64,000 bases of DNA, taken from assembly GCF_021535135.1 (NCBI RefSeq), contig NZ_CP091036.1:124001-188000 (forward strand). The letters are read 5' to 3'. Below the pieces are notes generated by a model. It was not told where the DNA came from. It worked only from the letters and a program-made list of their open reading frames with translations, and did not search any database. This document shows positions 3 through 63,465 of this stretch, piece after piece. Numbering within the stretch: the stretch's first letter is position 1; every line of letters begins with the position of its first letter. The position numbers and the translations under genes are program-made. This DNA is from Antarcticibacterium sp. 1MA-6-2 (GTDB lineage: Bacteria; Bacteroidota; Bacteroidia; Flavobacteriales; Flavobacteriaceae).

Positions 3-666
3 ATGAAAAAAATTATTCTAATTGGAGCTTCAGACCATTGTAGGTATACTATTGATATTATTGAACAGGAAGGGAAATATGAAATTTCCGGAATACTGGA
101 TAAAAACCTACCTGTGGGAGAAGAGTTTGGTGGATATCCGGTATTGGGATATTTAAATGATCTTCCAAAATTAATCGAGGATATGCAAATCGTTGGAGGC
201 GTTATTGCTATAGGAGATAATTTTACAAGAAAGAGATTGCAACAGGAAATAGAAAAATCTGTTCAAAATTTTACGTTTATAAACGCTATTCATCCCTCAG
301 TAATTTTTGGTAAAAAAGTAGAAATTGGTTCTGGTTGTGTTTTTATGGCTGGAGTTATTGTAAACAATAATTGTAAAATAGGGGATCATTGTTTTTTAGC
401 GACAAAATGTTCACTCGATCATGATTCCACAATAGGAAACTTTTCTAGTATGAGTCCCGGGGTTACTACAGGAGGTAGGGTGTCTATTGGCGATTGTACA
501 GCTATAGGAATAGGTGCCTCCATTCTACACTACAAGAGTATAGGTGATTACTGTGTCATTGGTGGAAATTCGCTGGTTAACAAAGACATAGAAGATTATT
601 ATGTAGCTTTTGGTATACTTAGCTAAACCAATTAAAAAGAGAAATCCTGAAGAAAAATATTTATAA
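3..666 (+). CDS. Sugar O-/N-acetyltransferase, NeuD/PglD family (frame broken near its end)
   Basis: This is a left-handed beta-helix acetyltransferase. The N-terminal part (MKKIILIGAS) is the Rossmann-like domain that binds the nucleotide sugar in PglD/NeuD proteins. From about residue 100 there are imperfect hexapeptide repeats (IGSGCVFMAG, IGDHCFLATK, IGNFSSMSPG, IGDYCVIGG). The conserved H-D pair of the active site is visible in SLDHDSTIG. The written frame stops at 624-626. Restoring one base at 618-622 (CTTAG, expected CCGG) gives the family-typical ending GIPAKPIKKRN and a stop at 664-666, for 220 residues. It sits 8 bp before an aminotransferase and then a 4,6-dehydratase, so acetylation of a 4-amino sugar nucleotide is the likely job. 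The exact substrate is inferred. Confidence 0.85.
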
Positions 667-674
667 AAAAATTT

Positions 675-1845
675 ATGGCAAAAAGTAAAATCTGGTTATC
701 CTCACCTCATATGGGGGGGACAGAACAAAAATACATAAATGAAGCATTTCAGGAAAACTGGATTGCACCTTTAGGCCCCAACGTGAGTGGGTTTGAGAAA
801 GATATTGAAAATTATCTTTTTAATGAAGGTGAAGGTCAGCATATTGAACCTGAAAAAGTATTTGTTGCGGCATTAAGTTCCGGAACTGCTGCTTTGCATT
901 TAGCATTGGTATTATTAGGAGTCAAGGCTGGTGATGATGTAATTTGCCAAAGTATGACCTTTGCGGCATCTGCTAACCCAATTGCCTATTTGGGAGCCAC
1001 ACTAGGTCTTTGTAGATAGTGAATCTGAAACTTATAATTTATCTCCTTATCACCTGGAAGAGGCGATAAAAAATCGAATTGCATTAGGTAAAAATGTAAA
1101 AGCGATAATTGCCGTTCATTTATATGGAATGCCCTATAAAATTGATGAGGTACATGAAGTAGCTCGAAAATATAATATTCCAATAGTAGAAGATAGTGCA
1201 GAAGCTTTAGGTAGTTCTTTTAAAGGTCAAAAATGTGGTACTTTTGGGGATATAGGAATACTGTCATTTAACGGAAATAAAATAATTACTACATCTGGTG
1301 GAGGTGCACTGGTGGCAAAGCGTAATGAACAAAAGCAAAAAGCGGTTTTTCTGGCGACTCAGGCAAGGGATGAAGCGCCCCATTACCAACATAGCCATAT
1401 TGGATATAACTACAGGTTGAGTAATATTTCCGCAGGTATTGGAAGGGGGCAAATGGAGGTTTTGGATGAACACGTTGCCAATCGCCGAAAAATGAACGAA
1501 TTTTATAAAGATATTTTTAAGGAGTTTAAAGGTATTACACTTCTAGAGGAACCTAACGAAAATTACTATAGCAATCATTGGCTTTCTGTGATCTTAGTTG
1601 ACGAATCAAAGACGGGAGGAATATCCAGGGAAGATTTAAGATTGGCCTTTGAATATGAAAATATCGAAAGCCGTCCTCTTTGGAAGCCTATGCATTTACA
1701 GCCCATTTTTGCAGGTGCTCCATATTTTGGGAATGGTGTTTGTGAAAAAGCCTTCACAACTGGATTATGTTTGCCTTCAGGATCCAATCTTAATGACAGT
1801 GATAGGAACCGGATTTCTGAAGTTATAAAAAGGGTATTAGGATAA
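675..1845 (+). CDS. DegT/DnrJ/EryC1 PLP aminotransferase, PglE-like (frameshift at 1002-1006)
   Basis: This is a PLP-dependent sugar-nucleotide aminotransferase. It starts with SKIWLSSPHMGGTEQKYI and has the family features SSGTAALHLAL (phosphate-binding region), VEDSAEALGS (the Asp that contacts the PLP pyridine nitrogen) and the Schiff-base lysine in NGNKIITT. The frame breaks after GAT: the sequence reads CTAGG at 1002-1006, where CCGG would give the very common GATPVFVDSE. With one base removed the gene is 389 residues, normal for the family. Only its second part has an apparent start of its own (1129), which is an internal Met and not a real gene start. Placed between the acetyltransferase and the dehydratase, it probably aminates the 4-keto sugar (PglE role); this is inference from family and order. 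Confidence 0.88.
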
Positions 1846-1866
1846 TAGATTAATTAAAAATCATAT

Positions 1867-3864
1867 ATGGGGAATCGCTTTAAAAACGCCCTTAAGTTTA
1901 GTTTAAACGGAGAAGATAGTTCTTTGGATTTGCGAAATATGAAATATTTACCGCGGTGGGTAATATTTCTTATAGATATATTCCTGGTGCTTATATCCTC
2001 TGTTTTAACAGTCCTCATAATTATTGATCTTACTCCAAATTACTATACCACTCTAGACTTTCCTTCTAAAATAGTCCTGGGGATTTTGGTTAATATCTTT
2101 TACTTTTTTGTATTTAAAACTTATGCAGGAATAATTAGATATTCTTCGAACATAGATGCTTTAAAGCTATTATTGGCAACTACTTCTTCTTTTCTTACTC
2201 TTGTCCTTATCAATTATATCACTTTTATCGTTATAGGTGAAAAAATATACCTTATTGGAGGACTCTTAATAAATCTATGGATTTCTTTCTCGCTGCTATT
2301 TCTATTTAGACTCGGGGTAAAACAAGTCTACGAGTTTTTTAAGATTGCACATAAGAATGAAGTATTAATAAGAGCAGTAATTTTAGGGGCGGATTCTAAT
2401 GCGATTTCCATCGCCGGGGCGTTAGATATTGAACATCCAAGAAGATTTAAAATTGTAGGGTTTCTCACAAAAGGCAAACATCACCGAAGCATAAGAATTT
2501 TAGATAAACCCGTTGTTCATTATTCCGATACTCTCCACTCTCAGGTTCGTGCTCTCAGAGCGTCTGCCGTTATTCTCTCAGAAGATAATTTCACATCAGA
2601 AGAAAAATTTGCTATCGTTGAAAATTGTTTGGAAAATGACATTAAAGTTTACAACGCTCCAATAGTGTCATATTACCAGGGAGAAGATAAACCTTTGGCT
2701 CAACAGGTAAAAACGTTGCAAATAGAAGATTTACTGGAGCGTGAGCCAATTCAATTAGACAAGGCAAACAAAGAAGCACAACTTACTGGTAAAACTATTT
2801 TAGTAACTTAGGTGCTGCCGGATCTATAGGTAGCGAAATAGTAAGACAGGTAGCTTACTATAATCCAAAGAAGTTATTGCTTCTGGATCAGGCAGAGACA
2901 CCACTGCACAATTTACAATTAGAAGTTGAATCCAAGTTTCCGGGCTTAAGTTATAAAGCAATAATTTGTGATGTAAATAACCAAAGAAGACTGGAATTAA
3001 TGTTTCAGAAACAAGATATAGATGTTGTCTATCACGCAGCTGCTTATAAACATGTCCCGTTAATGGAAGAGAATCCTCACGAGGCAGTTTTTGTAAATAT
3101 TAATGGAACTAAAAATCTCGCAGACTTATCTGTGAAATACAATGTTGGACATTTTGTTATGGTGTCAACAGACAAAGCTGTAAATCCCAGTAATGTTATG
3201 GGAGCTAGTAAAAGGGCTGCGGAAATGTATGTACAATCCCTTTTTCACAGTGAAATTGTAAAGAAAGAGAACCCTACAAGATTTATTACAACAAGGTTTG
3301 GTAATGTTTTAGGTTCCAATGGTTCGGTAGTTCCTTTGTTTAGAAAGCAAATTGAGAAAGGAGGTCCTATTACTATCACTCATCCGGACATTATTAGGTA
3401 TTTTATGACTATTCCTGAAGCTTGCCAACTTGTTTTAGAGGCTGGTACCATGGGTAAAGGTGGAGAGATCTTTGTGTTTGACATGGGAGAACCAGTAAAA
3501 ATTATGGATCTGGCTATTAAGATGATTAAACTTGCAGGCTATATTCCTAATAAGCATATAAAAATTAAAATTACCTGGTCTAAGGCCAGGAGAGAAACTC
3601 TATGAGGAATTGCTTAATAAGGAGAGTAAAACCCTCCCCACTCACCATAAGAAAATAATGATAGGAGTGGATAAAGTTCAGGATTATGAACGTATTAATG
3701 AAAAAGTTTCTACTATTATAAAATCAGCTCATAAGTTAAAAAATGACAAAGTAGTGGCAAAATTGAAAGACTTGATACCGGAATTTATAAGCAATAATTC
3801 CTCTTATGAGAGACTGGATAAATTAGAAAAAACATTAAAGAATACAGCAAATAAAACTATTTAG
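1867..3864 (+). CDS. Membrane-bound nucleotide-sugar 4,6-dehydratase, PglF/WbpM/CapD family (two frameshifts)
   Basis: The N-terminal 150 residues hold four hydrophobic segments (WVIFLIDIFLVLISSVL, IVLGILVNIFYFFVF, a third near FLTLVLINYITFIV, and LINLWISFSLLFLF), followed by a CoA-binding-like domain and a short-chain dehydrogenase/reductase domain. The NAD motif ILVTGAAGSIGSEI lies across the first lesion (CTTAGG at 2807-2812, expected CCGG). The catalytic block MVSTDKAVNPSNVMGASKR is intact. A second lesion (CCTGG at 3574-3578) separates the conserved TGLRPGEKLYEELL motif. Corrected length is 664 residues, typical of PglF/WbpM. The likely reaction is UDP-GlcNAc to UDP-4-keto-6-deoxy-GlcNAc at the inner membrane, feeding the two upstream enzymes. 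Confidence 0.88.
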
Positions 3865-3927
3865 GAAATAATATTCTTAGAATTACAGGTAACATCACTT
3901 ATCTTTTATATTGGCAAAAAAAATTTT

Positions 3928-7133: not shown

Positions 7134-7871
7134 ACACCTGGTTGGTATTTTGGATAACCTTTTTAACCTGGTCTCCAAATTTTTTGTTCAATTTTATATT
7201 TTCCAGTTTATCCAGGTGTTGATCGCGGTGAGTATCACTACCAATAAAATCAATTATCCAGCTTCCAGGAGTCGAAAACCTATTTCCTGAATTTGAGATC
7301 CATAATGGGGGGATAGGGAGAGTGCATTGATTTGGAAAAGACATCCCCGGTTCTTTAAGTCGGCATATTTGCTTAGATCTTTGGAATGATAAAAGGCATA
7401 TCTTTCAGGATGTGCAAGAATGGGACGATAACCTTGTGTTTGTAATTTAAAGAGTATTTCGTTAAGATTTATTGGAGCCTGGAAAAAGGACATTTCAACC
7501 AGCACATAATTTTCATTGAGGCACAGTAATTCTTTCTTCTCAAGTATTTCCATAAAACTCTGGTCCATCATATATTCCGCAGCAGCTTTAATTTTTACCT
7601 TTTGAAGTTCCTGATCTTCAATAATTTTATTTTTTAAAAGGCTAAGTGCGTTATTGATTGTCTCCCGGGTGTTTGGATAATAGTCATTCATCACATGAGG
7701 AGTGGCAATAAATTTAGTTATTCCCAGTTCCTTAAATTTTAAAAGTAATTGAACAGAATCAATTTCATTAGCAGCACCGTCATCAATACCCGGTAAAATA
7801 TGATTGTGTATGTCAGTTATTCCTTGTAGGAGGTCTTTCAGGTATATCTTGCTTTTAAAAATATTTAGCAT
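7123..7871 (-). CDS. Tyrosine-protein phosphatase, PHP family (CpsB/YwqE-like), frameshift at 7254-7262
   Basis: This is a manganese-dependent PHP phosphatase that acts on BY-kinases such as Wzc. The metal ligands H22 and H24 lie in TDIHNHILPGIDDGA. ATPHVMNDYYPNT, LAHPERYAF and GSDTHR (after the lesion) are further metal-binding blocks. The written frame ends with LLEAG; one missing base near 7258 (GCTGGATA on the coding strand, where GCCGGTATA is expected) reconnects it to IIDFIGSDTHRDQHL and a TAG stop at 7123. Corrected length is 249 residues. It is convergent with wzc and overlaps its last 11 bp. The lesion is one of the less clear RCCGGY cases because a base was lost rather than gained. 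Confidence 0.88.
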
Positions 7872-11850: not shown

Positions 11851-13314
11851 ATGAAAAGGGAAGAAATAAAGACATTAGAAGACTTAAAAAAATCAGGTTA
11901 CCAAAGTAGAAGTATAAAGGAGGAACTAAGACAAAATTTAATAGCTAAAATTAGAGCGGGAGAACCTGCCTTTGAGGGAATACACGGCTATGAATACACC
12001 GTAATTCCGGAGTTGGAGAGGGCAATTCTTTCCAAACACAATATCAACCTACTTGGACTGCGGGGACAGGCTAAAACCCGATTAGCGCGGCTTATGGTAA
12101 AACTACTGGATGAGTGGATCCCAGTTGTGGAAGGTTCAGAAATCAATGATGACCCGTTAAACCCCATTTCCCGGTACGCACGCGAAATAATTGCTGAAAA
12201 AGGAGAAAATACTCCAATTGACTGGATTCACAGGGATGAAAGATTTTTCGAAAAACTTGCGACTCCCGATGTTACTGTGGCCGATCTTATTGGAGACGTT
12301 GATCCTATAAAAGCAGCTAATTTAAAACTGAGTTATGCCGATGATCGTGTGATTCACTTCGGAATGATACCAAGGGCTAACAGATCAATTTTTGTAATCA
12401 ATGAATTACCAGATCTTCAGGCAAGAATTCAGGTAGCGCTATTTAATATTCTCCAGGAGGGAGACATACAAATTAGAGGTTTTAAGCTAAGACTGCCTCT
12501 CGATATGCAATTTATTTTTACAGCCAACCCAGAAGATTATACGAATAGGGGAAGTATAGTTACTCCCTTAAAAGATAGGATTGGGTCTCAAATTTTAACT
12601 CATTATCCTCACAATATTGAAACCGCCCGGGCCATTACCCAACAGGAGGCAAAATTAGATTCCAGGCAGAAGGAGATGATTTACGTGCCAGATCTTGCAA
12701 AGGATCTTCTGGAACAAATAAGCTTTGAAGCAAGGGACAATGAGTTTATCGATTCCCGAAGTGGTATAAGTGCAAGGCTAAGTATTTCAGCTTTTGAAAA
12801 CTTGTTAAGTACAGCCGAAAGACGTGCCATTAAAACAGGAGAAGAAAAAACTTCTCTAAGGTTTAGTGATTTTCTTGGCGTCATTCCGGCAATTACCGGT
12901 AAAGTTGAATTAGTATATGAGGGAGAACAGGAGGGAAGCGCAGTGGTGGCACAACAGCTAATAGCTGATGCTGTTAAGACTTTGTTCCCGAAACATTTTC
13001 CGAAGATTGAGAAACTCGAAAAACCCAAAGAGAACAGCCCTTACAATGATCTGGTTGAATGGTTTTTTGCTGAAAGCGGTTTTGAATTGCTCGATGACCT
13101 TTCCGATGATGAGTACCGGGAAAAATTAGATTCAATTCCTCCTCTAAATACTTTAGTTAAAAAATACCAGCCGGAAATAGCAAAAGAAGACAGCTATTTC
13201 CTGAAGGAGTTTCTGCTTTGGGGACTGGTAGAATTTAAAAAACTAAACAAATTTAGATACACTACCGGTATTCAGTTTAAGGATTTATACGGAAGCTATA
13301 TTAGCGGATTGTAA
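11851..13314 (+). CDS. MoxR/Mg-chelatase-type AAA+ ATPase
   Basis: This is a 487-residue AAA+ ATPase. Walker A appears as GLRGQAKT near residue 70, with Ala before the Lys as in RavA and Mg-chelatase-like ATPases. Walker B is IFVINELPDL (about 180-189) and sensor 1 is FTANPEDYT. The C-terminal 150 residues are specific to this subgroup. Together with the preceding VWA protein it resembles the ChlI/ChlD or RavA/ViaA pairing. The gene contains the only two intact RCCGGY sites seen in the window (12895-12900 and 13264-13269). A strong terminator follows the stop. Confidence 0.87.
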   Translation: MKREEIKTLEDLKKSGYQSRSIKEELRQNLIAKIRAGEPAFEGIHGYEYTVIPELERAILSKHNINLLGLRGQAKTRLARLMVKLLDEWIPVVEGSEINDDPLNPISRYAREIIAEKGENTPIDWIHRDERFFEKLATPDVTVADLIGDVDPIKAANLKLSYADDRVIHFGMIPRANRSIFVINELPDLQARIQVALFNILQEGDIQIRGFKLRLPLDMQFIFTANPEDYTNRGSIVTPLKDRIGSQILTHYPHNIETARAITQQEAKLDSRQKEMIYVPDLAKDLLEQISFEARDNEFIDSRSGISARLSISAFENLLSTAERRAIKTGEEKTSLRFSDFLGVIPAITGKVELVYEGEQEGSAVVAQQLIADAVKTLFPKHFPKIEKLEKPKENSPYNDLVEWFFAESGFELLDDLSDDEYREKLDSIPPLNTLVKKYQPEIAKEDSYFLKEFLLWGLVEFKKLNKFRYTTGIQFKDLYGSYISGL

Positions 13315-16177: not shown

Positions 16178-17099
16178 ATGAAAGAGATAAGAATTTTTTC
16201 TCCTGCTACCGTAGCTAACCTCTCCTGCGGTTTTGACGTTTTGGGCTGCTGCCTTGAAAACGTGGGAGATGGGATGTTGGTCCGTGAGAACGATTTACAA
16301 CAAATTAGGATCACTAAGATTATCGGTGAAGATCTGCCCCGGGATCCTGTAAAAAATGTCGCAGGAGTGGCAGCACAAAGTCTACTGAATCATTTGCAGA
16401 GTGAACAGGGTTTTGATATTGAAATCACCAAAAATATTAAAGTAGGAAGTGGAATTGGCAGCAGTGCTGCAAGTGCAGCCGGAGCTGTTTTTGCTGTGAA
16501 TCATTTGCTGGGAAGCCCATGCACCCCCGTAGAACTTGTTCCTTTTGCAATGGAAGGAGAGGCGCTTGCGAGTGGTAATGCACATGCTGACAATGTTGCA
16601 CTAAGCATTACTTGGAGGTTTTAGTCTTGTGAGAAGCTACAATCCTCTTGAAGTGTTATCCCTGCCAACTCCTCCTAAACTTAGGGTCGTTGTCCTCCAT
16701 CCTTTAATAGAAATAAAGACAAAAGATTCTCGCTCAATTTTACGGCAGAATGTAAGTCTTCAAAAAGCTATTGAACAGTGGGGAAATTTGGGTGCTTTTG
16801 TTAGTGCTCTGCATACCGAAGACTACGATCTCCTGGGAAGAAGCCTTAAAGATGGAATTATAGAGCCTACAAGATCCATTTTAATTCCTCATTTTGAAGA
16901 TTTAAAAAAGGTAGCTATGGAAAATGGAGCATTGGGCTTTGGTATTTCAGGCTCGGGACCTTCAGTTTTTGCCCTTTGTAAGGGAGACGAAAAAGCTCAA
17001 CAGGTAAAAGAGGCTATTCAGGAATTTTATGAACAACAAGGAATAGAATTCGATCTTCATCTCTCTGCAATCAATTCAGAGGGAATCAGGATTTTATAA
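16178..17099 (+). CDS. thrB: Homoserine kinase (frameshift at 16601-16605)
   Basis: This is a GHMP-family kinase that phosphorylates homoserine. It opens MKEIRIFSPATVANLSCGFD and has the ATP loop GSGIGSSAASAAG. The C-terminal GHMP motif is GISGSGPSVFAL. The frame breaks at CTAAG (16601-16605); with CCGG there the protein reads NVAPALLGGFSLVRS, the conserved motif of the family, and becomes 306 residues. The start is set at 16178, 4 bp after the thrA stop, rather than the earlier in-frame ATG at 16160 inside thrA, because homologues begin at MKEI. Confidence 0.93.
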
Positions 17100-21986: not shown

Positions 21987-23989
21987 TTATAAGGAAAGGT
22001 GCTGATTCAGTTTATTAATATTGGAAGGATTCCCGAAGAGGTACAAAAGGTCTCCCTGTTTAATCATGGTATCCGGCTGTACCTCGGTAATGTAATTCAC
22101 TCCTCTTTTAATGGTTAAGACCGTTACCCCGAAATTCTTTCCAATCCCGGACTTTTCAATAGTTTTTCCAACTATAGAATTGTTTTCTCTTTGTACACTT
22201 AAGGTTACAATTTCCTTGTTTGGAATATGAAGATGCTGGTAAGTGTGACGTGTGTGGACCTTTCTTGAGTGTCGTTAGCATTTCATAATCAGAGGATCTT
22301 ACCTGGTTAATAAAATCCTGAATTTCATTATGAGGTATGAGATACTTTCGTAAAACCCGACTAAAAATCTCTATTGAAGTCTCAAATTCTTCGGGAATTA
22401 CTTCATCTGCACCAAGTCTTAGGTTTTCTTCTATTTCCCGCACATACCTTGTTCGTACAATTAGATTGGCCGTTTGAGTTAGAGACCTTATTCCATTAAT
22501 TATTTTTTTAGTAGCATCGGGATCTGAAATTGCGATTACCACCACCCGCGCTTCCTGAACGTGCAGGTGTTTTAAAATTAAGGGATTGGTCGCATCTCCA
22601 AAAATTATAGGTTCTCCTGCCTTTTTACCTTTTTCAAAAGCATCCGGTTCAAGATCGGTTACTACATAGGGTATATTGGCATGCTTTGCGGCCTTAGAAA
22701 TATTTTGTCCGTTGATTCCAAAACCAATGATCACCAGGTGGTCATGGAAGTTCTTCCATTGGTGCCTCTGCACTCTTCATTTGTCTGTGCACATTATCGA
22801 GACGTTTTCTAACGGCTGCAGGTATGGGAATCTTTAAAATATTATAAGTGAGACTTGCTGAATAATTCATGACAAAAGGAGTGAGCCCCATTGTGATAAT
22901 TGAAATAGCCAGGAAATACTGGTACACACTTTCGGGTAGCAATTCGTTTTGTACACCAACCGTAGAAAGTAAAAGAGAAAACTCTCCTACCTGGAAAAGT
23001 GCAAAAACTGTCATGAACACTGTTCGTGGAGGATACCTTAATACCCAAACTGTACCTGCTATAATAAGCATCTTTAGAAGCAGAACGCCTATAACAAGCA
23101 ACAAAATCCAAACAATATTATTGAAGAAAAACTGAAGATTGAGAAGTGATCCTACCGAAATAAAGAAAAAACTAATAAAGATTTCCCGGAATGGAAGCAC
23201 ATTTGCGGTGGCCTGGTGGCTGTAATCAGATTCTGAAATAATTAATCCCGCGAAGAAAGCTCCCAAGGCAAGCGACAAACCTACAGAAGAGGTTAACCAG
23301 GCAACTCCAAAACAAAACACTATCGTTGTTAAAATAAATAATTCCCGGTTTTTGGTTTTGATCACCATTTTGAACACCCGTGGAACCACATAAAGGGCCA
23401 GTAAATAAATAAGTATACCTACTCCTAAAATCTTTAACAGCAGTATTCCCAGTGTCTCCAGAATATTATCAGATTTTCCTGCAAGAAGTGGAGTTAGCAA
23501 CATCATAGGAACTACCACTATATCCTGAAATATCAAAATTGCTACTGCAACCCTTCCATGAGGGGAGGTAATTTCTCCTTTCTCCTGTAAAATCTTTAGA
23601 ACAATTGCGGTACTGCTCAAAGAAAAAAGAAATCCTAAAAAGACCGCGGTATTTAAGGGTAATCCAAGAATGTTTGAAATGAGAGCGGTGAACAAAATAG
23701 TTCCTCCTACCTGCAACCCTCCGCCTATCAGGATAGTTTTTTTAATGGCAGCGAGACCTATTAAGGATAGTTCAATTCCTATTATAAAAAGAAGAAATAT
23801 AATCCCTATTTCACTCAATAGTTCAACCTCGTGTTGTGAACTTATTAGATTGAAGGCATAAGGTCCTGCAATTATTCCTGCTATTAAAAAACCCAAAAGT
23901 GATGGCAACTTAAGCTTTTGAAAGAGCAGAATTATAAATATCGACAGTCCTAGAATTACTACTATGTCCTTTAAAATTGGGATTTCCAT
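21987..23989 (-). CDS. Monovalent cation:proton antiporter-2 (KefB-type) with TrkA-N and TrkA-C domains (two frameshifts)
   Basis: The first 400 residues form a CPA2 antiporter with about twelve membrane segments. The cytoplasmic part begins with the Rossmann motif HLVIIGFGINGQN and includes the TrkA-N domain and a C-terminal TrkA-C domain (FGVTVLTIKRGVNYI). Two lesions interrupt it. One extra base near 22747-22756 separates the transporter from TrkA-N. A second, at 22239-22243 (GTAAG, expected CCGG), separates TrkA-N from TrkA-C. Corrected length is 666 residues. The predicted role is K+ or Na+ efflux coupled to protons, gated by nucleotide or redox state. The ion is not decided by sequence. 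Confidence 0.88.
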
Positions 23990-29100: not shown

Positions 29101-30161
29101 ACTTTAAATGAGCAGGGCTTCCGTTCTTATGTTGTTGGGGATTATAATGATATGATCGACCATATTATGCTTACAAATGAGCTGGAAAATAATTACATAA
29201 CAGGATCTGCAAGAGTGCACTATGAGCTGTATAACGGGGATTATACATTCACGACTTCAGATCACCTTCCGGTATCTGTAAGACTGACCATTCAGGCGCT
29301 TAAAGATTCATCTGTAAAATCCACTTTTCTTTGTAATGAGACCGATACTGCAACTGCTACAGTTAATGCTGAAGGCGGAATCGCTCCTTACACTTATTTG
29401 TGGAGCAATGGGCAAACAACTCAAACAGCTACAAGTCTTGGAGCAGGTAATTATTCAGTAGAAGTTACTGATGCTCTTGGAACTACTGTTTCTTCAGAAG
29501 TTACCGTTGAAAATGCTAATCCTATCCTGGTTGAAATGATTGAAGATCAAGTTGTATACCTTGGTTTTGGAAGCGACTGCACTACTTTAAGCGCAACTTC
29601 AATATCCGGAGGTTCAGGATCATATAGCTATGAGTGGAGCACCGGGGAAACTTCGGAATCTATCTCTGTTTGTCCTACGGAAAGTTCTGCTTATACTTTA
29701 ACGGTAACAGATGCCAACGGCTGCAGCACTTCTTCCGAAGTAAAAGTGGAAGTTCAGAATATCTCCTGCGGAAATGGAAATAAAACTGATAAAGTTCAGG
29801 TTTGTTTTCAGGGTAAAACACATTGTGTTGCCCAACAAGCTGTACCTGCTTTATTGAAGAATGGAGCGCAACTGGGAAGCTGTGGAACTTCTTCTGCCTT
29901 AGATATTGAAGAGATTACTGCTTCTCCAAATCCAACTTCGGGATATTCTGTTGTACGTTTCAAAAGCACAACTTAGGTGGTAAGGCAGTACTTGCTGTTT
30001 ATGGATTAAGTGGAAATAAAGTCCAGGAAGAAAAAGTAACTGTATTTGAAGGAACTTCAGATTTTCAGATAAACCTTACAAGAGCAATTCCCGGAATTTA
30101 TATAGTAAAAATCCAGGGAGCCAATTTTGAAAGCGATCCTGTTAAGATCATTAAATACTAA
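26170..30161 (+). CDS. Large secreted nuclease: three lamin-tail domains, OB-like domain, EEP nuclease, T9SS sorting signal (four lesions)
   Basis: Domains in order: signal peptide (HIIGFIASFLVTFLLPAQ), three lamin-tail domains each opening with the pattern (V/F)xNEIHYD and separated by PEPEPE linkers, an OB-fold-like region (about 530-740), an EEP nuclease domain, two Ig/PKD-like repeats with SNGQTTQTA and STGETSES motifs, and a C-terminal type A T9SS sorting domain starting ASPNPTSG. Nuclease motifs are VTWNIEWFG, AVNEISDE, ILGDYNDDVD and TSDHLPV. Lesions are one base lost at about 26764-26768, TAGG at 27153-27156 (in-frame stop, expected CCGG), CTAGG at 27910-27914 and CTTAGG at 29972-29977. 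Corrected length is 1329 residues. It resembles ExeM/NucH-type extracellular DNases; DNA as substrate is inferred. Confidence 0.9.
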
Positions 30162-31482: not shown

Positions 31483-31519
31483 TCAGCTTAAGCTGTAAAT
31501 TTTGTTCCCACGTCTTTAC

Positions 31520-44354: not shown

Positions 44355-47300
44355 ATGAAAAATAATAATTCATCTGCCCGCCCTAAAGTAAAAACTTCTT
44401 CAGTGGCAACTACAAGATTAATAGCTGTTGGTGCAAGTGCAGGAGGGTTAGAAGCTTTAAAAGCCTTTTTTCAGAATCTTCCGGGTGATGACAATAATTC
44501 ATATGTAGTCATTCAACATCTTTCGCCAGACTATAAAAGTATGATGGGGGAACTATTGGCAAAATCTACCAATCTTCAAATTGAACAAATTAAGGACAAT
44601 ATGGAGATTCTACCGGGTAGAATTTATTTAATTCCTCCGGTAAATAACCTTGTGATCCAAAATGGCATGCTTCATCTTCTTGAAAAACCCAAGGATCAAA
44701 AGCTTAATTTGCCAATAGATATGTTTCTTCAATCCCTCGCCGAATATAAAACCGACAAAGCAATTGCTGTTATTCTTAGTGGTACTTAAGCAGTGACGGT
44801 ACCAGAGGAATTAGAGCTATAAAGGAAAAGGATGGGATGGTAATGGTCCAGGATCCTGAACAGGCAAAGTTCGATGGCATGCCTCAAAGTGCTATACATA
44901 CAGGATTGGTGGACTATGTTTTAAAAGTTGAAGATATGGGTGAGGAGCTAAGCAATTTTATTAATGCTCCTGTGGTATTACACTTTACTGAAGGTAATAT
45001 TGAATATGATGAACATACCTTATCTAAAATTCTTCACCTGGTAAATGAAAAAACAGGTTTGGATTTTAGGGAATACAAACATTCAACGCTTGCCAGGAGG
45101 GTTGCCAGGAGAGTAAATGTATGTAGATGTAATTCATTGGGAGAATATTACAGCTTATTACAGTCCAATGAAAATGAAATTCCTGTGCTTTATCGGGAGT
45201 TTTTAATAGGGGTCACAAAATTCTTCAGGGATTCGCGGGTGTGGGATATTTTAAGGGAGGAAGTAATTCCAGATCTTATTAAGAATAAAAAGGAAGGTGA
45301 AATTTTAAAAATATGGGATGTTGGCTGCAGTACAGGAGAGGAAGCCTATTCTCTTGGTATGCTTTTGAACGAAGAAATTGAGCGGCAGGACAAAAAAGTA
45401 GAGGTTAAGATTTTTGCGACTGACATTTCACAAAAACACCTTGATATAGGAAGCCAGGGAATATATTCAGAGAGTATAGTTGCAGACGTTGCACCACATC
45501 TCATGCAAAAATATTTTTGTGTTAAAAGCAAAGGATATCAGGTTGTAGAACAAATAAGAAGAATGGTTATTTTTTCTAAACACAACGTGATCAAGAATCC
45601 ACCATTTAGTAATATGGAAATGGTTTTGTGCCGTAACCTATTGATTTATTTTCAGCCCTCTATTCAAAGGAAAGCTTTAAATGTACTGCACTACGGTTTA
45701 AAAGAAGAAGGTGTTTTAGTGTTGGGCACAAGTGAAACTGTTCAAACTCACCGGGAATTTTTTGAGGATATAAGCCGAAAATGGAAAATTTACCGGAACA
45801 TTAATCCTCGTAAAAGGCTAAATTCTGAAAATTTACATTCATCTTCCCGTATTCTGGTTGAAAATAAGACGTTTAGAAAACGTAGTAATGTTTCTGCTTC
45901 TCAGGGGAATATAAGACAGAAGTTCGTCAACGAACTTAATGAAGCTATTCTGGAACAATTCGGTGGGGCTAGTGTTTTTGTTGATTCAGAATTTAATATT
46001 CTACAGGCAATTGGTCAATTTAGAAGATACGCTAATTTACCTGTTAACGGTTTTTCTATCAATCTCCTGGATATGTTAGAGCAGGACCTGAAGCACATAG
46101 TGCAAGCTACCGTGAGAAATGCCGAAAAAGAGAACGATAAGGTATATTACAAAGATGCAGTCTATGAACACAATTTTGAGAAGAAATCTCTGGATCTAAT
46201 TGTAAAACCTTTTAAACAGCACAACCTCGACAACGAAAATAGTTTTGTTATTACGTTCTTAGAAAAAGAAATTGAACTGCATAAAATAACAGAAGTTGAG
46301 AAGGTTACCCTTACCAGCAGGACTAAAGAGTACATTGCAGAACTTGAGACCGAACTAAAGAGGACTAAAGAGGAATTGCAAACCTCCCTTGAGGAAATTG
46401 AAACCAGCAATGAAGAATTGCAGGCGGCTAATGAAGAATTGCTTGCCAGTAATGAAGAGTTGCAAAGTACCAATGAAGAACTACAGAGTGTAAACGAGGA
46501 GATAAATACAGTGAATGCAGAAAATGTTCAGAAAATGGATGATCTGGCTGAACTAAATGCGGACATGAATAATCTTCTCGAAAGTATTGATATAGGTACC
46601 ATATTTCTCGACAGTTCCCTGAGAATAAGAAAATTTACACCAGCTATTAAAAAACACTTCAGCCTTATAAATTCTGACATAGGAAGGCCTATTCATAATT
46701 TCACAACCAATTTTGGAGTTTTAAAAGGACGTAAAGATCTTCTTTCAAGATGTAAAAAAGTAATTGAAACAGGAAAAAAGCAGGAAAGACATATAGTTTC
46801 ACGGGAAGGAAATCATTATTTACAACGTATTTCCCCTTTTATCAATTCCGGAGAAAAACCCGATGGTGTTGTAATAACTTTTGTAGATATAGAGACTTTA
46901 CAAAAGGCCCAGGATAAATTAGTGGCAAGTGAAAAGAAATTTAAATCTTTTTACGAAAAAGATCCTGTGCTTCACTTTAGTGTAGACCCTAATACCTCTA
47001 TAATAAAAGAGTGTAATGAAAAGGCAGTTGAGAAGCTGGGATATTCCTCAAAAGAGGAATTGATTGGCAGGCCTATGTATGAACTTTATGAAGATGAAGC
47101 TCAGCTTAAAGCTGTAAAACTCAATAATTTGTTTATAAAGCAGGGGGAACTTACTAATGTAGAGCAGGAAATGATTACCAAATCTGGTAAAAAATTACCA
47201 GTACTTCTTAATTCTACAGTGGAGTTGGATGAGGATAACAATGTGGTGAGTAACAGGTTCACCTGTGTTGATATATCTGAACTTAAGGAGGCCCAGGTAA

Positions 47301-48005: not shown

Positions 48006-50228
48006 ATGAAGTTACTTAGCAGAGGATTATCCTTCTCAAATAGATGTAACCAATTGTGACCGTGAACCCATACATATAATAGGAAAATCTCAGGCTCACG
48101 GGGTGATTCTCGCCTGTGACAAAAGAAACTTCAGGATAACTCAGTGTAGTGAAAACTCTTCTGAAATTCTGAGGTTTAAAGTTTCTGAGCTTGTAGGAAA
48201 ACCACTGTCTGTCCTGTTAGCTGAAAACTCTTACAAAGGTTTAAATCCGGGAAAAGGAGAAAAAATCCTGCTTCCCGAAGCAAAGTTCAATAATTCCTCT
48301 TTTCTCGTTATTGCGCATACTTCCGAAGAAAGTTTGATCCTGGAGTTTGAGCCATTGGCAGGTAGTACAACACCTGTCAATTATCAGGAGCAGCTAAGTA
48401 GGATCCTCAATGAATTAACAGCGGCAGAATCTATCGAGCAAATGTGCAATAAGGCTGCTTACCTGGTAAAGACGCTTTTTGGGTATGACCGGGTAATGCT
48501 TTATCACTTTGACGAGGAGTGGAACGGGGAAGTAATTGCCGAAGAGAAAGAGGAAAAGCTGGAGAGCTGGTTAGGACTTCATTATCCAGCTACAGATATT
48601 CCAAAACCTTCAAGAGATCTATTTTTAAAACAGGGGGTAAGAATGATTAGCGATGTTAATTATTCTCCTGCAGTAATTACTCCCGAATATTCTCCAATAA
48701 ATAATAAACCACTGGACCTTTCCCGGTCTGAGCTTCGGGCTGTGTCTCCCATTCATATTGAATATTTAAAAAATATGGGTGTTGGAGCTTCTTTAACGGC
48801 AGCTATTGTTTTAAACGGTAAGTTGTGGGGTCTCCTTGCCTGCCACCATTACATAGCAAAATTTGTAGATTATTATCAACGGCAATCGGTAAAATTTCTT
48901 ACCCAGATCTTTACCAACAGGCTTGCCGTAAAAACTACCGAAATATCTATAGAAAAATCCCGGTATTCTTTGGAGATAAGGAAGAAGCTCGTGGAGCAAA
49001 TGGATAATAACCAGGATATAATTTCAGCAATAACAAAAGATAAAACTTCTTTTACCGAAATCATTTCCTGTTCTGGTGGAGCAGTTTTTTTAGAAGATGA
49101 AATTGAACTTGTTGGTAAAACACCCTCCCGGGAGGAAGTGCAGCATTTAGTAGAAAATCTTCTTAATAGGCAAAAGATATTTCACACCAATCAACTGGAA
49201 AAGATCTTTCGTGCTGCGGGTGCTTATAAGGACGTAGCTTCGGGAGTACTTTCAGTACAAATAGGTGAAAGTGAAAAAAACCTTCTAATATGGTTTCGGG
49301 AAGAAACTTCAGAAAGTGTAAATTGGGGAGGAAAACCTGAAAAAGATGAAGTCATTAAGGGAGGAGTAAAATATTTAAGCCCTCGCAACTCTTTCAAAAA
49401 ATGGACACAGAAGGTATCAGGAATTTCGAGACCCTGGAGAGATTATGAATTTGATGCAGCGATTGCACTGCAGGAGAGTATTACCCATAAAATTGTTCAG
49501 CAACAAAAAGAGGAAATAAATGACCTAAATAAGCGCCTTACCCTGGTCAACAAAGAACTTGAGGCGTTTTCTTATAGTATTTCCCACGATTTACGAGCCC
49601 CATTAAGAGGAATAAGTGGTTATGCAAATATTTTATTGCAAGATCACGGTTCCCAATTAGATGAAAAGGGAGTGAAAGCATTAAATACAATTAAAAATTC
49701 TGCTGCAGGATTAAATCTCCTTATAAACGATCTTTTAAGTTTTGCGAAGCTTGGAAACGAGAAAATTCAGAGGAAACTTAGAGACCTGGAAAAGCTTATA
49801 GAGGAAATACTGGCTTCTTTAAACCTGGAGGACAATTATAGCAACACTCAAATTTCGATTAAAAACGGCTTTCCCGGTATTACCGGAGATGAAAAACTCA
49901 TATTTCAATTGTATAGTAATCTTATTGAAAATGCTCTAAAATATTCTTCAGGAGTTGCCAGCCCTACGATAGAAATGGGTGCCATGCAACAAAGTGAACA
50001 GCCAGACGTTTTTTATGTAAGAGATAATGGAATAGGCTTTAATCCCAAATTAAGCAATAAAATATTTGATGTGTTTTCCCGGCTGGTGGGTGAGGAATAT
50101 GCAGGAACCAGATAGGTTTAGCTATTGCCAGGAAGGTAGTTGATAAACACCAGGGGAAAATATGGGCTGAAAGCTCCCCCGGCCAGGGTTCCACTTTTTA
50201 TTTTACTTTAGCGGGTAATGCTGAATAA
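48006..50228 (+). CDS. bphP: Bacteriophytochrome histidine kinase (two frameshifts)
   Basis: This red/far-red photoreceptor has PAS, GAF, PHY, HisKA and HATPase domains. The biliverdin-attachment Cys17 lies in [18 protein letters not shown]. The GAF domain has [14 protein letters not shown] and the chromophore His in [17 protein letters not shown]. The PHY tongue motif is SPRNSF. The phosphoacceptor His is in [14 protein letters not shown] lesion at codon 4 (CTTAG, 48015-48019) hides the true start, and another at 50108-50113 hides the end ([15 protein letters not shown]). Corrected, it runs from the ATG at 48006 to TAA at 50226-50228, 740 residues. Without correction the first apparent Met (48103) would remove the chromophore Cys. 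Confidence 0.93.
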
Positions 50229-56732: not shown

Positions 56733-57585
56733 TTACTTATTAAATTTTCCTGAAGGGATTACAAGTAGGGGTATTTTTAAATTAAATCCTATCTCATTGA
56801 TCACAGGCCGAAAAAGTAGATTCTCGAAAAATGAGTGTTTATTGCTCACCATTACCATCATATCCGTCTCCGTTTTCTCCTGAAAAGCGTATATGCCACG
56901 TGATACAGTTTGTTCTTCCAAATTGTGAAACTCGTGTGGAATTTCTGAAAGATAGGAAGAAAGGAGATCTTTTTGTTTTAACTGTTGAGGTTGTAAAGCA
57001 ATCCCAAAATTGACATGGAGAATATGTATGGTTGATTTACAACCTACAGCGAGATCTTTGAGGACATTAAGCTGGTCGCTAAGTGTAATTCACATCATAA
57101 TCTGTAGGAAAAAGAATGTTATGGGGAAGCTTAAAATGAAATCCTGAAGGAATAGCCAGGAGGGGGCACTTAATTCTTTTAATAGCATGCACTGTGTGGG
57201 TTCCAAAGAGGATTTGTTCCGCACCCGTAGCTCCCTTTGTACCCATTACCACCATATCTATATTTTGGTCCTTTACTATTTCCCTGATGGATTCGTTTAA
57301 CAAATTAAATTCAGCAATTTTCTCAAAACAGTGCTTTTTGTTATTATAGTCCTGCCTTATCTTTTCTTCGATCTTTTCAAGTCCTTTCAGGGAATTTTCA
57401 TTGTAGATCTCATCCAGGCTTAGACTGGAGGAATTGTACAAGATGAAAACAGAATCATATAATACCGGAGTGTAAGTATTCAATAGATAAAAGGTACACT
57501 CTTCATTCCATAGAAGTTGTATGGCATATCGTATTGCGTTAAACGCATTCTGTGAAAAATCTGTGGGCAATAAAACTCTTTTCAT
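56733..57585 (-). CDS. Two-domain universal stress protein (frameshift at 57079-57083)
   Basis: Two tandem UspA domains. The first has VLLPTDFSQNAFNAIRYA and the nucleotide motif MGTKGATGAEQILFGTHT. The second has ILFPTDYDVNYTGDQL and ends LLVIPSGKFNK. The frame breaks at CTAAG (plus strand 57079-57083; expected CCGG), which splits the second domain. Corrected length is 283 residues. The second domain lacks the G-x2-G-x9-G motif, so only the first is likely to bind ATP. It is one of a pair with the gene at 58483-59314. Confidence 0.88.
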
Positions 57586-58482: not shown

Positions 58483-59314
58483 TTATCGTGCTTCTCTAAT
58501 ACTTAATAATGGGATCCTCGTGCTGGATTGCATTTTTTTTACAAGATCACGGTGAACCATAGCCTTAAAACTTAATTTAGATAGATGTTCCATCATAACT
58601 ATAAGATCGGCATTGGTTTCCTCAAGGCAATCTATGATGGATTCAATAACATCTGTGGAACTTAAGGTTCTAAATGATATATTTTTATAGCCCGTTTTTT
58701 CAAACAGCAGTTCTTTAAACCATTCCATAAGTTCATTAGCTTCGCTTTCCCGCCCAATTGCTACGTGAACAATGGTAATGTTTAATTGTAATGGCTTAAA
58801 GGTTAGGAGTAACTCACAAATATTCTTAATGTCTTCTTCAGCAAAATCTGTAGTGTATAAAATATTTTCCAGGCTTTTAAAAATAAAATTTCCGGGAACA
58901 GTAAGAACAGGAATGGGTGAGGCAGAAATTAACTGTTCTGCTGTACTACCAGGGGAAAATCCTTTAACAGTTCCTGAGCCACAGGAGCTTAGTGACTACC
59001 ATAAGCACATCTATGTCTCTTGTGAATTTAATTATTTCCCGACAAACATTTTCTCCTTTTACTACTGCAAGCGAAAGATCCAGATTCTCGAAATTTTCCT
59101 GAAGGTTCAGGCTACAAAATTTTTGAAGCCTCCGGGTATGGTGAGAAATAATTTCCTTTTTTTCTGAAGGAGTTCTCGCAGAAGAAAGATCATCAGGATT
59201 AAAAGTATGCAGGACAATAACATCTTTTTTTAGAAGCTTCCCCAGTTCATAAGTGTATCTTAAAGCAGCAACAGAATTTTCTGAAAAATCTGTAGCATAA
59301 ACTATTTTTTTCAT
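58483..59314 (-). CDS. Two-domain universal stress protein (frameshift at 58988-58992)
   Basis: Tandem UspA domains. The N-terminal one begins VYATDFSENSVAALRYTYEL and continues LMVVTGSCGSGTVKGFSPGSTAEQLI after correction. The second begins NILYTTDFAEED. The frame breaks where the plus strand reads CTTAG (58988-58992) in place of CCGG; the correction gives the nucleotide-binding Gly-rich motif. Corrected length is 276 residues. It lies convergent with the zinc-ribbon gene. Confidence 0.87.
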
Positions 59315-59506
59315 AACCCGGAATTTTAAATAAAGTTAATCCACAACTTGTTGATCTGGAATGATATTCCTCAGCTTTCCCGGTTAATGAAATATTTTCC
59401 TGAGGTTTATAATTTATAGTTTTTTGGGAAGGGTTTACATTTTCTTTAAAACCAATTCAATTTGTAGTTCAGTATCTTGAAGTAAAATAATTAAGTAAAT
59501 AAAATT

Positions 59507-60313
59507 ATGAGCGAGAATAGAAAAACTGTATTAATAACCGGAGCATCAAGTGGAATAGGGAAGGAGCTGGCAAAAAAGTTTGCTTCAGAAGGTTATGACA
59601 TAATTGGGGTTGCACGTAACGAGAAGGAACTGGAACAGTTAAAATACGATCTAAAACAACAGCATAAGGCTGAAATGTTTGTAATTACCAAAGATCTTGC
59701 AGAGGATGGCGCTGCTAAACAGGTATATGAGGAGGTAAAGCAATTCGGTAGGCAGATAGATGTTTTGGTAAATGACGCTTAGGTGGGGCAAAGTGGAAAA
59801 TTCTTTGACCTGCCTTTTGAAAGGGATACCGAATTAATTCACCTTAATGTAATTTCCCTTACTCACCTCACGAAACTATACTTAAAAGAAATGGTGGCAA
59901 GGGATGAAGGTAAAATACTCCAACTAGGATCTGTTGCAGGATTTCAACCGGGGCCGGGAATGGCTGTTTATCATGCAACTAAAGCTTATGTAGTTTCACT
60001 TTCTGAAGCAATTGCGACAGAACTTCAGGATATAGACAGCCATGTTTCTATTACCTGTCTTTGTCCAGGACCTACAGATACAAAATTCTTTTCCCGGGCA
60101 GATCTGGAGGAATCCAATGTAGTCCACTACAAGGATATGACTATGCAGCCGCCTGAAGAAGTGGCTAAAGGAGCTTATAAAGCTTTAATGGATGGAGAAA
60201 GAATTTATATTCCCGGAGCAACTAATAAAGTTATGACCTTTATAAGAAGGGCTATCCCTAAAAGTATGCAAGCCAACTTGCAGAAAAAATTCTATGAACA
60301 TCACGAAGATTAA
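59507..60313 (+). CDS. Short-chain dehydrogenase/reductase (in-frame TAG at 59780)
   Basis: A classical SDR of 268 residues. The NAD(P) motif is TGASSGIG at residues 10-17, followed by NDAGVGQSG in place of NNAGxxxxG, the catalytic Ser in QLGSVAGF and YHATKAYVVSLSEA. The written sequence has TAG in place of the Gly of the NNAG motif (59780-59782), where GCCGGT is expected; the reading frame is otherwise continuous. It acts on an unknown alcohol or ketone. Readthrough of TAG is not needed to explain it. Confidence 0.88.
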
Positions 60314-60334
60314 ATTTTACAGAATAATCTCAGG

Positions 60335-60360
60335 GAGAAATGAAAATTTCTCATTTTTTT
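60335..60360 (+). terminator. Intrinsic terminator after the SDR gene
   Basis: GAGAAAT and ATTTCTC pair around GAAA, followed by a T run (60354-60360). Confidence 0.82.
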
Positions 60361-60479
60361 ATAATTAAAATCCTACGGAAGCAAAATGAAGATAAGGTCA
60401 ATTTAAAAGTTCCTTAAAATATTAATGCTGGTTTTATTCTTAAAAAATAAGCACAGATATTTGCACCTCACTTTCTGGA

Positions 60480-61632
60480 ATGTCATCAAAAAAGCAACAA
60501 CGTCTATCCTTAAGCATATATTTCTTTTTGTCAGGTTTTGGTTTTGCCACCTGGGCTTCCAGAATACCCAGCATAAAGATGTTTTTTGACCTCAATGAGG
60601 CACAGTTAGGAAATCTTCTTCTGGCTATGCTTAGTAAGTTCTCTAATAGGTTTACCAATTTCTGGCTGGCTCGTTTCCAGGTTTGACAGTCGACAGCCAT
60701 TATTAATCTCCTTTTTATTTTTTTCCATTGCACTTGTTTTCATTGGGTTTGCTGAAAATCTCCTGATGATGGTTCTCTCCATAGGCATGTTTTCCTTTTC
60801 CATGAGAATCCTGAATATTTCTATGAACACCCAATCTTTAACGCTTCAAAAATTTTATGAAAAAAGAATTATCGGGAGTTTCCATGGTTTATGGAGTGCG
60901 GGTGGACTCTTTGGGGTTGGCTGCTCAACTTTAATGATTCATTACAATGTTTCCATGGAAACACATCTCGCTATAATAGGAGGATTCTTTCTTCTGGCAG
61001 CAGGAATTGCATATCAAAATCTTTTAAAAAAAGACAGGGCAAAAAGTGGAAATAAATTACAATTAAAAAATCCCGATAAGTTTATTCTCTACCTGGGTAT
61101 CATGATATTTTTTGCAGCAGTTTGTGAGGGTGGAATGTTTGATTGGAGTGGGGTGTTTTTTAAAGAGGTGGTGAAGGAAGATACCTTTACGTTAGGCTAT
61201 TTTATATTTATGTTATTTATGGCAATTTCCAGGTTTTTTTCTGACAGGTTAATTGACAGCCTGGGAATGCAAAATATGTTCATTTTAAGTGCCTCTATAA
61301 TTTCAATGGGTATTTTGCTAATGGTATTTTTTCCTGTTTTTTGGCTTAAGCAATTATAGGTTTTAGCCTTGTAGGTTTTGGGGTAGCGGCTATTATTCCT
61401 ATGATCTATGCCCTCGCTAAGTACTTCCAAAAAATATTCCCCGGGAATGGCTGTTTCCATTATTGCAACTTACGGTATAATAGGAATGTTGCTGGGACCA
61501 CCCCTCATTGGATATCTGGCACACATATTTAATTTAAAAATTGCATTTTTGCTTTTGCTCCTGTGTGGATTAATGCAAATTCCTATTTCACGAAAATTTT
61601 TTAGACTACGGAAGACAAATGATTCGGATTGA
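60480..61632 (+). CDS. MFS transporter, YbjJ-like (three frameshifts)
   Basis: A major facilitator of 382 residues with about twelve membrane segments. It opens LSGFGFATWASRIPSIK and has LGNLLLAMPVSSLIGLPISG, typical of MFS proteins annotated YbjJ/fucose-permease-like. Three RCCGGY-class lesions cut it into four pieces: CTTAG at 60630-60634, CTTAAG at 61345-61350 and CTAAG at 61417-61421. Correction gives an unbroken chain including FWPAIIGFSLVGFGVAAI and YALAGTSKKYSPGMAV. The substrate is unknown. Confidence 0.85.
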
Positions 61633-61694
61633 CAAAATTTTCAATGAGAGTTTCGGAAAAGATATTTCTCATTCGGAAATTAAAAAATTTTAAA

Positions 61695-62552
61695 TTACTT
61701 CAGCAAAAATTCAAGGGGAATATGCGCTCTTTTTTTCCAGCTTTCTTCATTATGAGCAGCCCCTTCAAATTTTTTTGACACCCAGTTTTGATTGTTAATG
61801 TAGCCTCTGTTTTCCATGATCCTGTCTACTCTTAGTTGATAAGGTTCATAGGCAGCATCCATAGTTTCTGTACCATGATCAAAATAGATCTTATGATCTT
61901 CCGGGTCGGGAAGGGCAGAAGCTAATCCCCGAATATAGGCTTCTCCAATAAGAGGCACTTACCAATGTGTAGAGATACATCCTGCGGCTCCAAAAATAGC
62001 AGGATACTTAGAGATAGCATATAGAGATATTAGACCGCCCATGGACGATCCCATAATAACTGTATCCTTCTTCTCATTTGAAATAGGGTAAGTAGTTTTA
62101 ATAAATGGAATAAGTTCTTCTACTATAAATTTCAGGTAATTGTTAGATTGTAATTCTGTAACTCCAAAATTAGCTTTTAGAATGGCCCTGGCCTGAGGAG
62201 TAGAGGTATATTCTTTTGGTACCTCGGGCATATATTCAATGAATCTTTTAAAACCATTATTGTGAATAGCTACTACAATGGTGGGAGCTACTTTTCCCTC
62301 ACTTATAAGATTTTCCAATGTTTGTCCAATACCCCATTGTTTAGAATTGTTTTGAGAGCGATCATTAAAAATGTTTTGCCCATCATGAACATAAAGGACT
62401 TTATATTTTTGAACCTTATCAAAAGTGAAGCGTGGCGGTATCCAGACATCTACTGTACGATTGTCCACGTACCGGGATTCAAAATTCTTATGCTGTATAA
62501 TGCTGCTTTTTGATCTTTCAGTAATTGCAAATGCAGATTCTCTTTCTGTCAT
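61695..62552 (-). CDS. Putative esterase, alpha/beta-hydrolase (in-frame TAA at 61958-61961)
   Basis: Esterase family (IroE/Fes-like) of 285 residues. The nucleophile lies in MGSSMGGLISLYAISKYP. The catalytic Asp and His are probably in YFDHGTETMDA and EGAAHNEESW, downstream of the lesion. The coding strand reads CATTGG-TAAG-TGCC where CCGG would give THWPVPLIGEA; the change creates an in-frame TAA. The substrate is unknown. No signal peptide is seen. Confidence 0.85.
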
Positions 62553-62624
62553 AATTTATTTTCCTTCTGGTAATTCTAAGAAGATTTAGCGAAAAAGAAA
62601 TCTGAGAGTCAAAATGAAGTGATT

Positions 62625-63465
62625 TTATTTTAAAAGCTCTAAAAATCGATTCCACGCAGCATCATGTGCTTTTTCGTTTGCCTCACTGGCATCCGGTTGA
62701 TGTGCTCTTTTCATAAAAGCGTGCCCGGCTCCTTCGTAAATTTTATAGTCGAAGGTTTTGCTTAGCGCCTTGCATTTGTTGGGAAGTTTTTTCAATGGTT
62801 GCATTTACTCTTTCATCGTCTCCTCCATAATAACCGTACACGGGAGCTTTTATTTCTTTCAGGACGCTGGCATCATCGGGAGCCGTCCCATAAAACACAT
62901 GTGCCGAAGAAATTTCAGAATTATTAGTTGCATAGCGAAAGGTTTGCGATCCACCCCAGCAGAAACCCACGACAGTAACTTTACCTGTAGCTGCCGCATC
63001 ATCTTTTACATAAGCAAAAGCGGCATCGAGATCTTCCGTGACCTGAGCAGGATCCAGGTCATAAATGGCGTCTCTGGCTGCATCTGGGTTTTCAAAATCT
63101 GTAGTGCGTTTTTTTCCGTGGGTGTTTGAGATCATATCTGGTGCTATAACCAGGTAGCCTTGTGCCGCAAGTTTATCTGCAAATAATCTCGCCCAGTCGT
63201 CTAAACCCCTATTCTCGTGTATTACAATAACAGCCGCTGTTTTTTTTCTGGATTCGGGATATACTACAAACGCCTGTAACTCCCGGTTGCCATGAGATAA
63301 GCTTACCCACTCATGGTGTCTTGGTGAATTGGACAATTGCTCAGTTATAGTTCTTTCAGAATTTTCAATTTGAGGAGATCCTGATTTTTCTGTTTTAAAC
63401 AGGGCACAAGAAATCGTTGTGTAGCAAATCAATATAATCATCAGCCCATTGTATAATCTCTTCAT
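62625..63465 (-). CDS. Dienelactone hydrolase family lipoprotein (frameshift at 62761-62765)
   Basis: A lipoprotein signal (LICYTTISC, Cys20) precedes an alpha/beta-hydrolase of the dienelactone hydrolase family, with VIVIHENRGLDDWARLFADK, nucleophile Cys in VVGFCWGG and the catalytic His in EGAGHAFMKRAHQPD, which lies beyond the lesion. The frame breaks at CTTAG on the plus strand (expected CCGG), restoring QGAGKTFDYKIYEGAG. Corrected length is 279 residues. The natural substrate is not known. Confidence 0.9.

Follow-up and report, generated by a model that had tools for sequence, protein, structure and literature searches.

Near-complete loss of RCCGGY from the published genome of Antarcticibacterium sp. 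1MA-6-2 most likely reflects basecalling errors at a modified motif

The window discussed here is a stretch of 64,000 nucleotides of Antarcticibacterium sp. 1MA-6-2 (G000:C1:124001-188000), taken from a genome of 4,383,004 bases in one contig. The subject is the word RCCGGY (R being a purine, Y a pyrimidine), which is almost entirely missing from the window and from the genome as a whole. Basecalling errors at a modified RCCGGY have, with a probability of about 0.9, left false letters in the published consensus, and the bacterium most likely has the word unaltered in its chromosome. Such errors account for the motif, its strand symmetry, the recurrence of a few strings and the dependence on flanking bases. 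An initial annotation of the window had listed 25 reading-frame lesions at expected RCCGGY sites and had proposed such systematic miscalling, which is now supported by a loss restricted to one context of CCGG, by strings that recur in its place and by a gene of predicted Cfr10I specificity.

Loss of RCCGGY and the accompanying lesions

In the window, CCGG occurs 55 times as RCCGGR, 66 times as YCCGGY and 67 times as YCCGGR, compared to only 2 times as RCCGGY, in agreement with the earlier statement that the other contexts are intact. In a sample of the same genome (20 stretches of 20 kb, spread over the genome) the numbers are 380, 333 and 377 for the other contexts versus 7 for RCCGGY, and in 22 named relatives' loci (470.8 kb) they are 364, 315 and 355 versus 361. 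(As an indication of kinship, the aspartokinase/homoserine dehydrogenase of the window matches those of Salegentibacter, Gillisia and Christiangramia at 76-80%, in keeping with a place in the Gillisia group of flavobacteria.) A genome-wide count, proposed as a check by the initial annotation, gave 62 RCCGGY (49 + 0 + 13, from three patterns jointly covering every flank), whereas 3,953 would be expected on the basis of the other CCGG contexts in the same genome and 3,006 on that of the relatives. This means that ~98% of the sites are missing, or ~96% with natural avoidance as strong as in G474, a carrier of a similar methyltransferase (see below). When all hexamers are compared between 464 kb of this genome and 851 kb of relatives, the three forms of RCCGGY are the three most depleted, with 4 ACCGGT observed versus 228 expected, 0 GCCGGC versus 99, and 7 ACCGGC versus 181 (both strands counted).

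The strings found in place of the word were counted genome-wide and held against three yardsticks, given here in the order context, pooled relatives and the single relative G011. R-CTTAG/CTAAG-Y occurs 171 times (82, 103 and 65 expected), R-CTTAGG-Y 37 times (16, 24 and 14 expected), and R-CTTAAG-Y 38 times (22, 17 and 26 expected). Each of 168 five- and six-base forms with C first and G last was given two scores, the weaker of which decided its rank. CTAAG leads this ranking, with CTTAGG (as CCTAAG) in second, CCTGG (as CCAGG) in fourth and CTAGG (as CCTAG) in eighth place. As for the products of plain substitution, the change of the inner C to T is enriched relative to context (R-CTGG-Y, R-CTAG-Y), while that of the outer C is not. 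The substitute strings recur, and a dependence on the flanking bases is seen in the surviving sites: 49 of the 62 have A or T on both flanks (p 7e-9 relative to the 309 of 748 sites of relatives that do), and 42 have the core ACCGGT, versus 245 of 748 (p 1e-7), as a k-mer effect on the signal would give. Separately, intact RCCGGY is present in each of the four copies of one repeat (L093:1079, 1519, 3280 and 3500), which share a 20 kb stretch with a ribosomal RNA operon.

To assess the lesions, the window was compared with intact proteins from relatives by an alignment method that tolerates frameshifts and is blind to the motif. Antisense open reading frames (ORFs) of the relatives gave spurious stops, and ORFs overlapping a longer one by >40% were excluded from the test with four relatives. 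In that test, 23 lesions with at least two supporting relatives were found in 47.7 kb of the window, versus 4 in the homologous stretch of G011 (46.2 kb), 0 in G010 (46.1 kb), 0 in G007 (45.5 kb) and 1 in G002 (32.6 kb), the relatives' own counts drawing support from three comparison genomes each and that of the window from four. Counting all clusters, the window has 26, versus 7, 3, 5 and 3, respectively. The four supported lesions in G011 (G011:C1, L121-L124) are three frameshifts of -1 and one of +2, located at or near runs of C or G.

With eight relatives, 39 clusters were obtained, 30 of them backed by at least two genomes, and 23 of the 25 listed lesions were recovered. Twenty of the 23 are backed by at least two genomes and three (58988, 59778 and 61958, which belong to the nine single-genome clusters) by the sole genome covering them; at 618 and 48015 no relative aligned. 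Of the recovered lesions, 13 lie in plus-strand genes and 10 in minus-strand genes, confirming that both strands are hit. The list was not complete, however, as it missed lesions of the same type at 26763, 31519 and probably 19009. Among 20 listed lesions, some insert one base and others two, some are deletions and one is an in-frame stop, and the relatives' residues at the breaks point to different codon phases.

These residues also bear on the expected word, as RCCGGY in two of its phases encodes the pairs [AT]G or P[AV], which have a background of 7.5%. When a lesion is counted if half or more of its alignments have such a pair, 17 of the 30 lesions qualify (p ~4e-12), as do 13 of the 20 listed ones (p ~1e-10). 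In nucleotide alignments (blastn), columns where relatives have RCCGGY are identical in the window in 2 of 92 cases, versus 13/97, 8/107 and 15/92 for the other contexts, and a relative has RCCGGY at the exact column of the lesions near 3573, 16600, 26763 and 27909. At 26817 a relative's RCCGGY faces R-TAAG-Y in frame, which is an in-frame difference and not a lesion. Overall, the errors are limited to one short, strand-symmetric motif, with a few run-length and unassigned lesions also present.

The methyltransferase island and competing explanations

Outside the window, at ~3.944-3.947 Mb of the genome, genes for Vsr, a C5-cytosine methyltransferase and a restriction endonuclease lie together. 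The methyltransferase is the only one of the C5 type found in the genome, its reading frame is open throughout and its recognition region is conserved. Its homologues include one in Moraxella osloensis that adjoins a close homologue of Cfr10I (53% identity) and one in Nostoc sp. HK-01 that adjoins a Bse634I-like enzyme (54% identity). From these neighbours of its homologues and from the word that is lost, the enzyme is predicted to act on RCCGGY; the search for a methyltransferase suggested in the initial annotation has therefore yielded a matching candidate, with a specificity assigned by homology. The restriction enzyme of the island belongs to PF27126. A search of the PDB up to E = 1 gave no sequence match for it, though Cfr10I, Bse634I and SgrAI are all present there, while the neighbouring enzymes in Moraxella and Nostoc do match Cfr10I and Bse634I by sequence. 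Sequence homology to the Cfr10I/Bse634I family was accordingly not found for this enzyme. A remote relation in fold may exist. As to cleavage at a distance on both sides of the site, a feature of NmeDI-like systems, a low-confidence model has a BspD6I/FokI-like C-terminal half.

In the favoured explanation, a type II system of NmeDI/Cfr10I specificity would methylate one cytosine of RCCGGY on both strands, the enzyme presumably being active and its mark presumably 5-methylcytosine (5mC). A signal-based long-read basecaller that was not trained on the modified word would then put out a few recurrent strings, mainly R-CTTAG-Y (R-CTAAG-Y on the other strand) and also R-CTTAGG-Y, R-CTTAAG-Y and others. 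Since the reads would err alike, the error would be kept in the consensus. The underlying data are probably nanopore reads alone, without short-read polishing.

It is unlikely that the miscalling is due to another mark or enzyme, i.e. an unrecognised and perhaps bulkier modification at RCCGGY. The loss is near-total and often comes with one or two extra bases, which is heavier than the errors described for native R10 assemblies of Neisseria (in the available text of PMC12506013) and would suit such a mark. Against this stands the methyltransferase of matching predicted specificity. Furthermore, no PF01555 enzyme was found when the genome was searched for one, and PF02384, for which there are matches, is an adenine-type family. 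No tailoring gene was recognised by eye over the ORFs of L100, no systematic search having been made. The PF02384 matches at G000:C1:2830659-2831607 and 244251-245189 are split or contain an in-frame TAG, which may stem from the same artefact as the lesions in the window.

A real loss of the sites would require either that the cell's own restriction enzyme cut RCCGGY, with small insertions left by error-prone repair, or that selection removed the sites. A restriction enzyme is indeed encoded in the island, and its possible effect can be judged from three other genomes (G173, G474 and G577) with methyltransferases 62-66% identical to the one found here. Such carriers are rare in the sets drawn for the search. 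Among 397 genomes of the family there were 2 (E up to 1e-100), and among 395 of the phylum there were 4 (E up to 1e-90), with the genome under study and G173 counted in both sets. In G173 (220 kb) there are 75 RCCGGY versus 53-68 in the other CCGG contexts, in G474 (200 kb) 138 versus 225-267 (~0.55 of their mean), and in G577 (160 kb) 103 versus 149-165 (~0.66 of their mean). RCCGGY is therefore below the other contexts in two of the three carriers, as mild restriction avoidance would give, but none of them shows the loss. Because the three carriers keep most or all of their sites, carrying the system does not in itself erase RCCGGY, whereas 96-98% of the sites are gone here. Selection, moreover, would be expected to act silently and not by breaking the frames of genes for the capsule, for transporters, for amino acids and for the envelope. 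These breaks are backed by nearly every covering relative, and a few strings recur on both strands. Given the carriers and the kinds of genes that are broken, a real mutational cause is very unlikely.

Biological recoding, in which ribosomal frameshifting or transcript editing would yield whole proteins from a truly altered genome, has nothing but the recurrence of the strings in its favour and can be set aside as hardly conceivable, given the mixture of one- and two-base insertions, deletions and an in-frame stop, the involvement of both strands and different codon phases, and the genome-wide loss of the word.

Several observations weigh against basecalling errors at a methylated RCCGGY, or at least against parts of the evidence for them. 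In the pooled relatives' sets used for the hexamer, survivor and string comparisons, two genomes are represented by stretches that partly overlap (L003 with L120 or L125-L128, and L013 with L129-L132). The dipeptide test is failed by 7 of the 20 listed lesions. Length changes are not more common at RCCGGY columns (6/92) than at those of the other contexts (4/97, 4/107 and 5/92) in the blastn alignments, and that column test is for this reason weak. Not all strings behave alike either. R-CTAG-Y (76) and R-CTAGG-Y (28) are above the context and G011 figures and below the rate of the pooled relatives, and R-CCTGG-Y (282) is above the context and pooled figures and below that of G011. Of the forms given in the initial annotation, CTTAG/CTAAG and CTTAGG are enriched genome-wide, but R-TAGG-Y and R-TAAG-Y are not, and the lesion at 7254 shows none of the listed forms. 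The substitution-type products point to the inner C, whereas VchM, a known RCCGGY methyltransferase, reportedly modifies the first C; an offset in the signal could account for this. Homopolymer run lengths look normal, and what points to long reads is the assembly in one contig together with a few lesions in run length.

Finally, the errors in native R10 assemblies of Neisseria are far milder, and therefore an older basecaller or model, or a heavier mark, is needed. If the latter applies, the cytosine in RCCGGY could be a further-processed base, heavier than plain 5mC and so disruptive that one or two extra bases are read at many sites, and words missing from finished assemblies could map such marks in public genomes without raw data, but this is improbable.

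Affected genes along the window

All positions below are window coordinates, gene names derive from Pfam matches of the relatives' proteins, and the fractions give supporting out of covering relatives. The first listed lesion, at 618..623 (+), is located near the end of ORF 3-626 and is known from the sequence and this ORF, no relative being aligned. It is followed on the same strand by frame breaks in a DegT/DnrJ/EryC1-type aminotransferase gene (1002..1007, 4/4) and, twice, in a polysaccharide biosynthesis (PF02719) gene, at 2807..2812 (4/4) and 3574..3579 (4/4, with RCCGGY in G011 at this column). A CpsB/CapC-like gene on the minus strand is broken at 7254..7259 (4/4), in a form unlike the others. 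The two intact RCCGGY of the window are at 12895..12900 and 13264..13269.

At 16601..16606 (+) a GHMP kinase gene is broken (5/5, G011 again having RCCGGY at the column); its place between thrA- and thrC-like genes suggests that it encodes homoserine kinase. A gene for a Na+/H+ exchanger with TrkA domains is broken at 22239..22244 (-, 5/5). Four lesions are present in a plus-strand gene with nuclease-like and SprB domains, namely the unlisted one at 26763..26770 (5/5, cluster centre 26757, RCCGGY in G011), an in-frame stop at 27153..27158 (5/5), and frame breaks at 27910..27915 (5/5, RCCGGY in G011) and 29972..29977 (4/4). The minus strand then has another unlisted lesion, in an amino-acid kinase (PF00696) gene (31519..31524, 3/3), a frame break in the pyrroline-5-carboxylate reductase gene (32744..32749, 3/3), and three in one TamB-like gene (37084..37089, 38380..38385 and 39284..39289, each 2/2). 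The initial annotation considered essential genes to be among those hit, which holds only in part, the GHMP kinase, amino-acid kinase and pyrroline-5-carboxylate reductase genes being biosynthetic and not of established essentiality.

Further along the plus strand, a gene with CheB, CheR, PAS and histidine-kinase domains is broken at 44785..44790 (3/3) and a phytochrome-like histidine kinase gene at 50108..50113 (4/4). The listed lesion at 48015..48020 is located just upstream of the alignment of this phytochrome-like kinase, where no relative aligned, and is given from the sequence without a strand. Two universal-stress-protein genes on the minus strand have frame breaks at 57079..57084 (3/3) and 58988..58993 (1/1). 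On the plus strand, there is an in-frame stop in a short-chain dehydrogenase gene (59778..59783, 1/1), and one MFS transporter gene has three frame breaks (60630..60635, 61345..61350 and 61417..61422, each 2/2). The last two, on the minus strand, are an in-frame stop in an esterase-like gene (61958..61963, 1/1) and a frame break in a dienelactone-hydrolase-like gene (62761..62766, 3/3).

Apart from these, frame breaks at 9947, 35574 and 39414 (supported by 4, 2 and 2 relatives, respectively) lie at or beside runs of A, C or G, and look like errors in run length that add to the effect of the motif. Lesions at 19892, 20118, 22746 and 57845 (2 to 5 relatives) match neither the RCCGGY forms nor a long homopolymer.

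Significance and relation to known systems

A genome that looks complete would contain ~1,600 to 3,900 errors, the lower figure allowing for natural avoidance as strong as in G474 (the range being 2,900 to 3,900 otherwise), and this is enough for many healthy genes to pass as pseudogenes. The collection searched has no other genome of this species, and work on gene loss, on recoding or on codon usage could be misled by the one at hand. The case also shows that a finished assembly alone can betray a methyltransferase, through a missing word, the strings that stand in its place and, elsewhere in the genome, a gene with fitting specificity.

Among known systems, the island resembles the gene set of NmeDI of Neisseria meningitidis (RCCGGY), in that Vsr, C5-methyltransferase and restriction enzyme are adjacent, but the host here is a marine flavobacterium and the site of the restriction enzyme is putative. 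To the Cfr10I/Bse634I systems the likeness is in the methyltransferase, whose homologues (53% and 54%) adjoin enzymes of that family, and the difference is in the restriction enzyme, a PF27126 member without a sequence match in the PDB. The same word is described as the target of VchM of Vibrio cholerae (m5C, at the first C), reported as an orphan in the available text of PMC13201069, and of EFSG_00659 of Enterococcus faecium (m5C, at position 2, as reported in PMC6328761); here, unlike for the orphan VchM, a restriction enzyme and Vsr are adjacent.

Systematic errors at modified words in a consensus from native DNA have been reported several times for nanopore data. Default models produced consensus errors in Dcm sites, which with the Oxford Nanopore basecallers of 2019 reportedly made up ~70% of the consensus errors in a Klebsiella pneumoniae genome (PMC6591954). 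Listeria assemblies are described as losing quality through untrained marks and regaining it after amplification (PMC10687267), and K. pneumoniae outbreak genomes as having motif-linked ambiguous positions (PMC11610573). In native R10 assemblies of N. meningitidis, substitutions and indels were reported at methylated positions, with 208 substitutions and 103 indels (311 mismatches) in the typing loci of 23 isolates, versus 0 and 1, respectively, after amplification by polymerase chain reaction; the available text names no motif for them (PMC12506013). A report of such consensus errors with the RCCGGY motif was not found in the literature. As far as described, the errors in Listeria, Klebsiella and Neisseria are mainly substitutions, whereas here 96-98% of the sites of one word have disappeared and one or two bases are commonly inserted. 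The phenomenon is of a known kind, and this instance is notable for its motif, for its severity, and for a finished assembly that by itself points to the enzyme.

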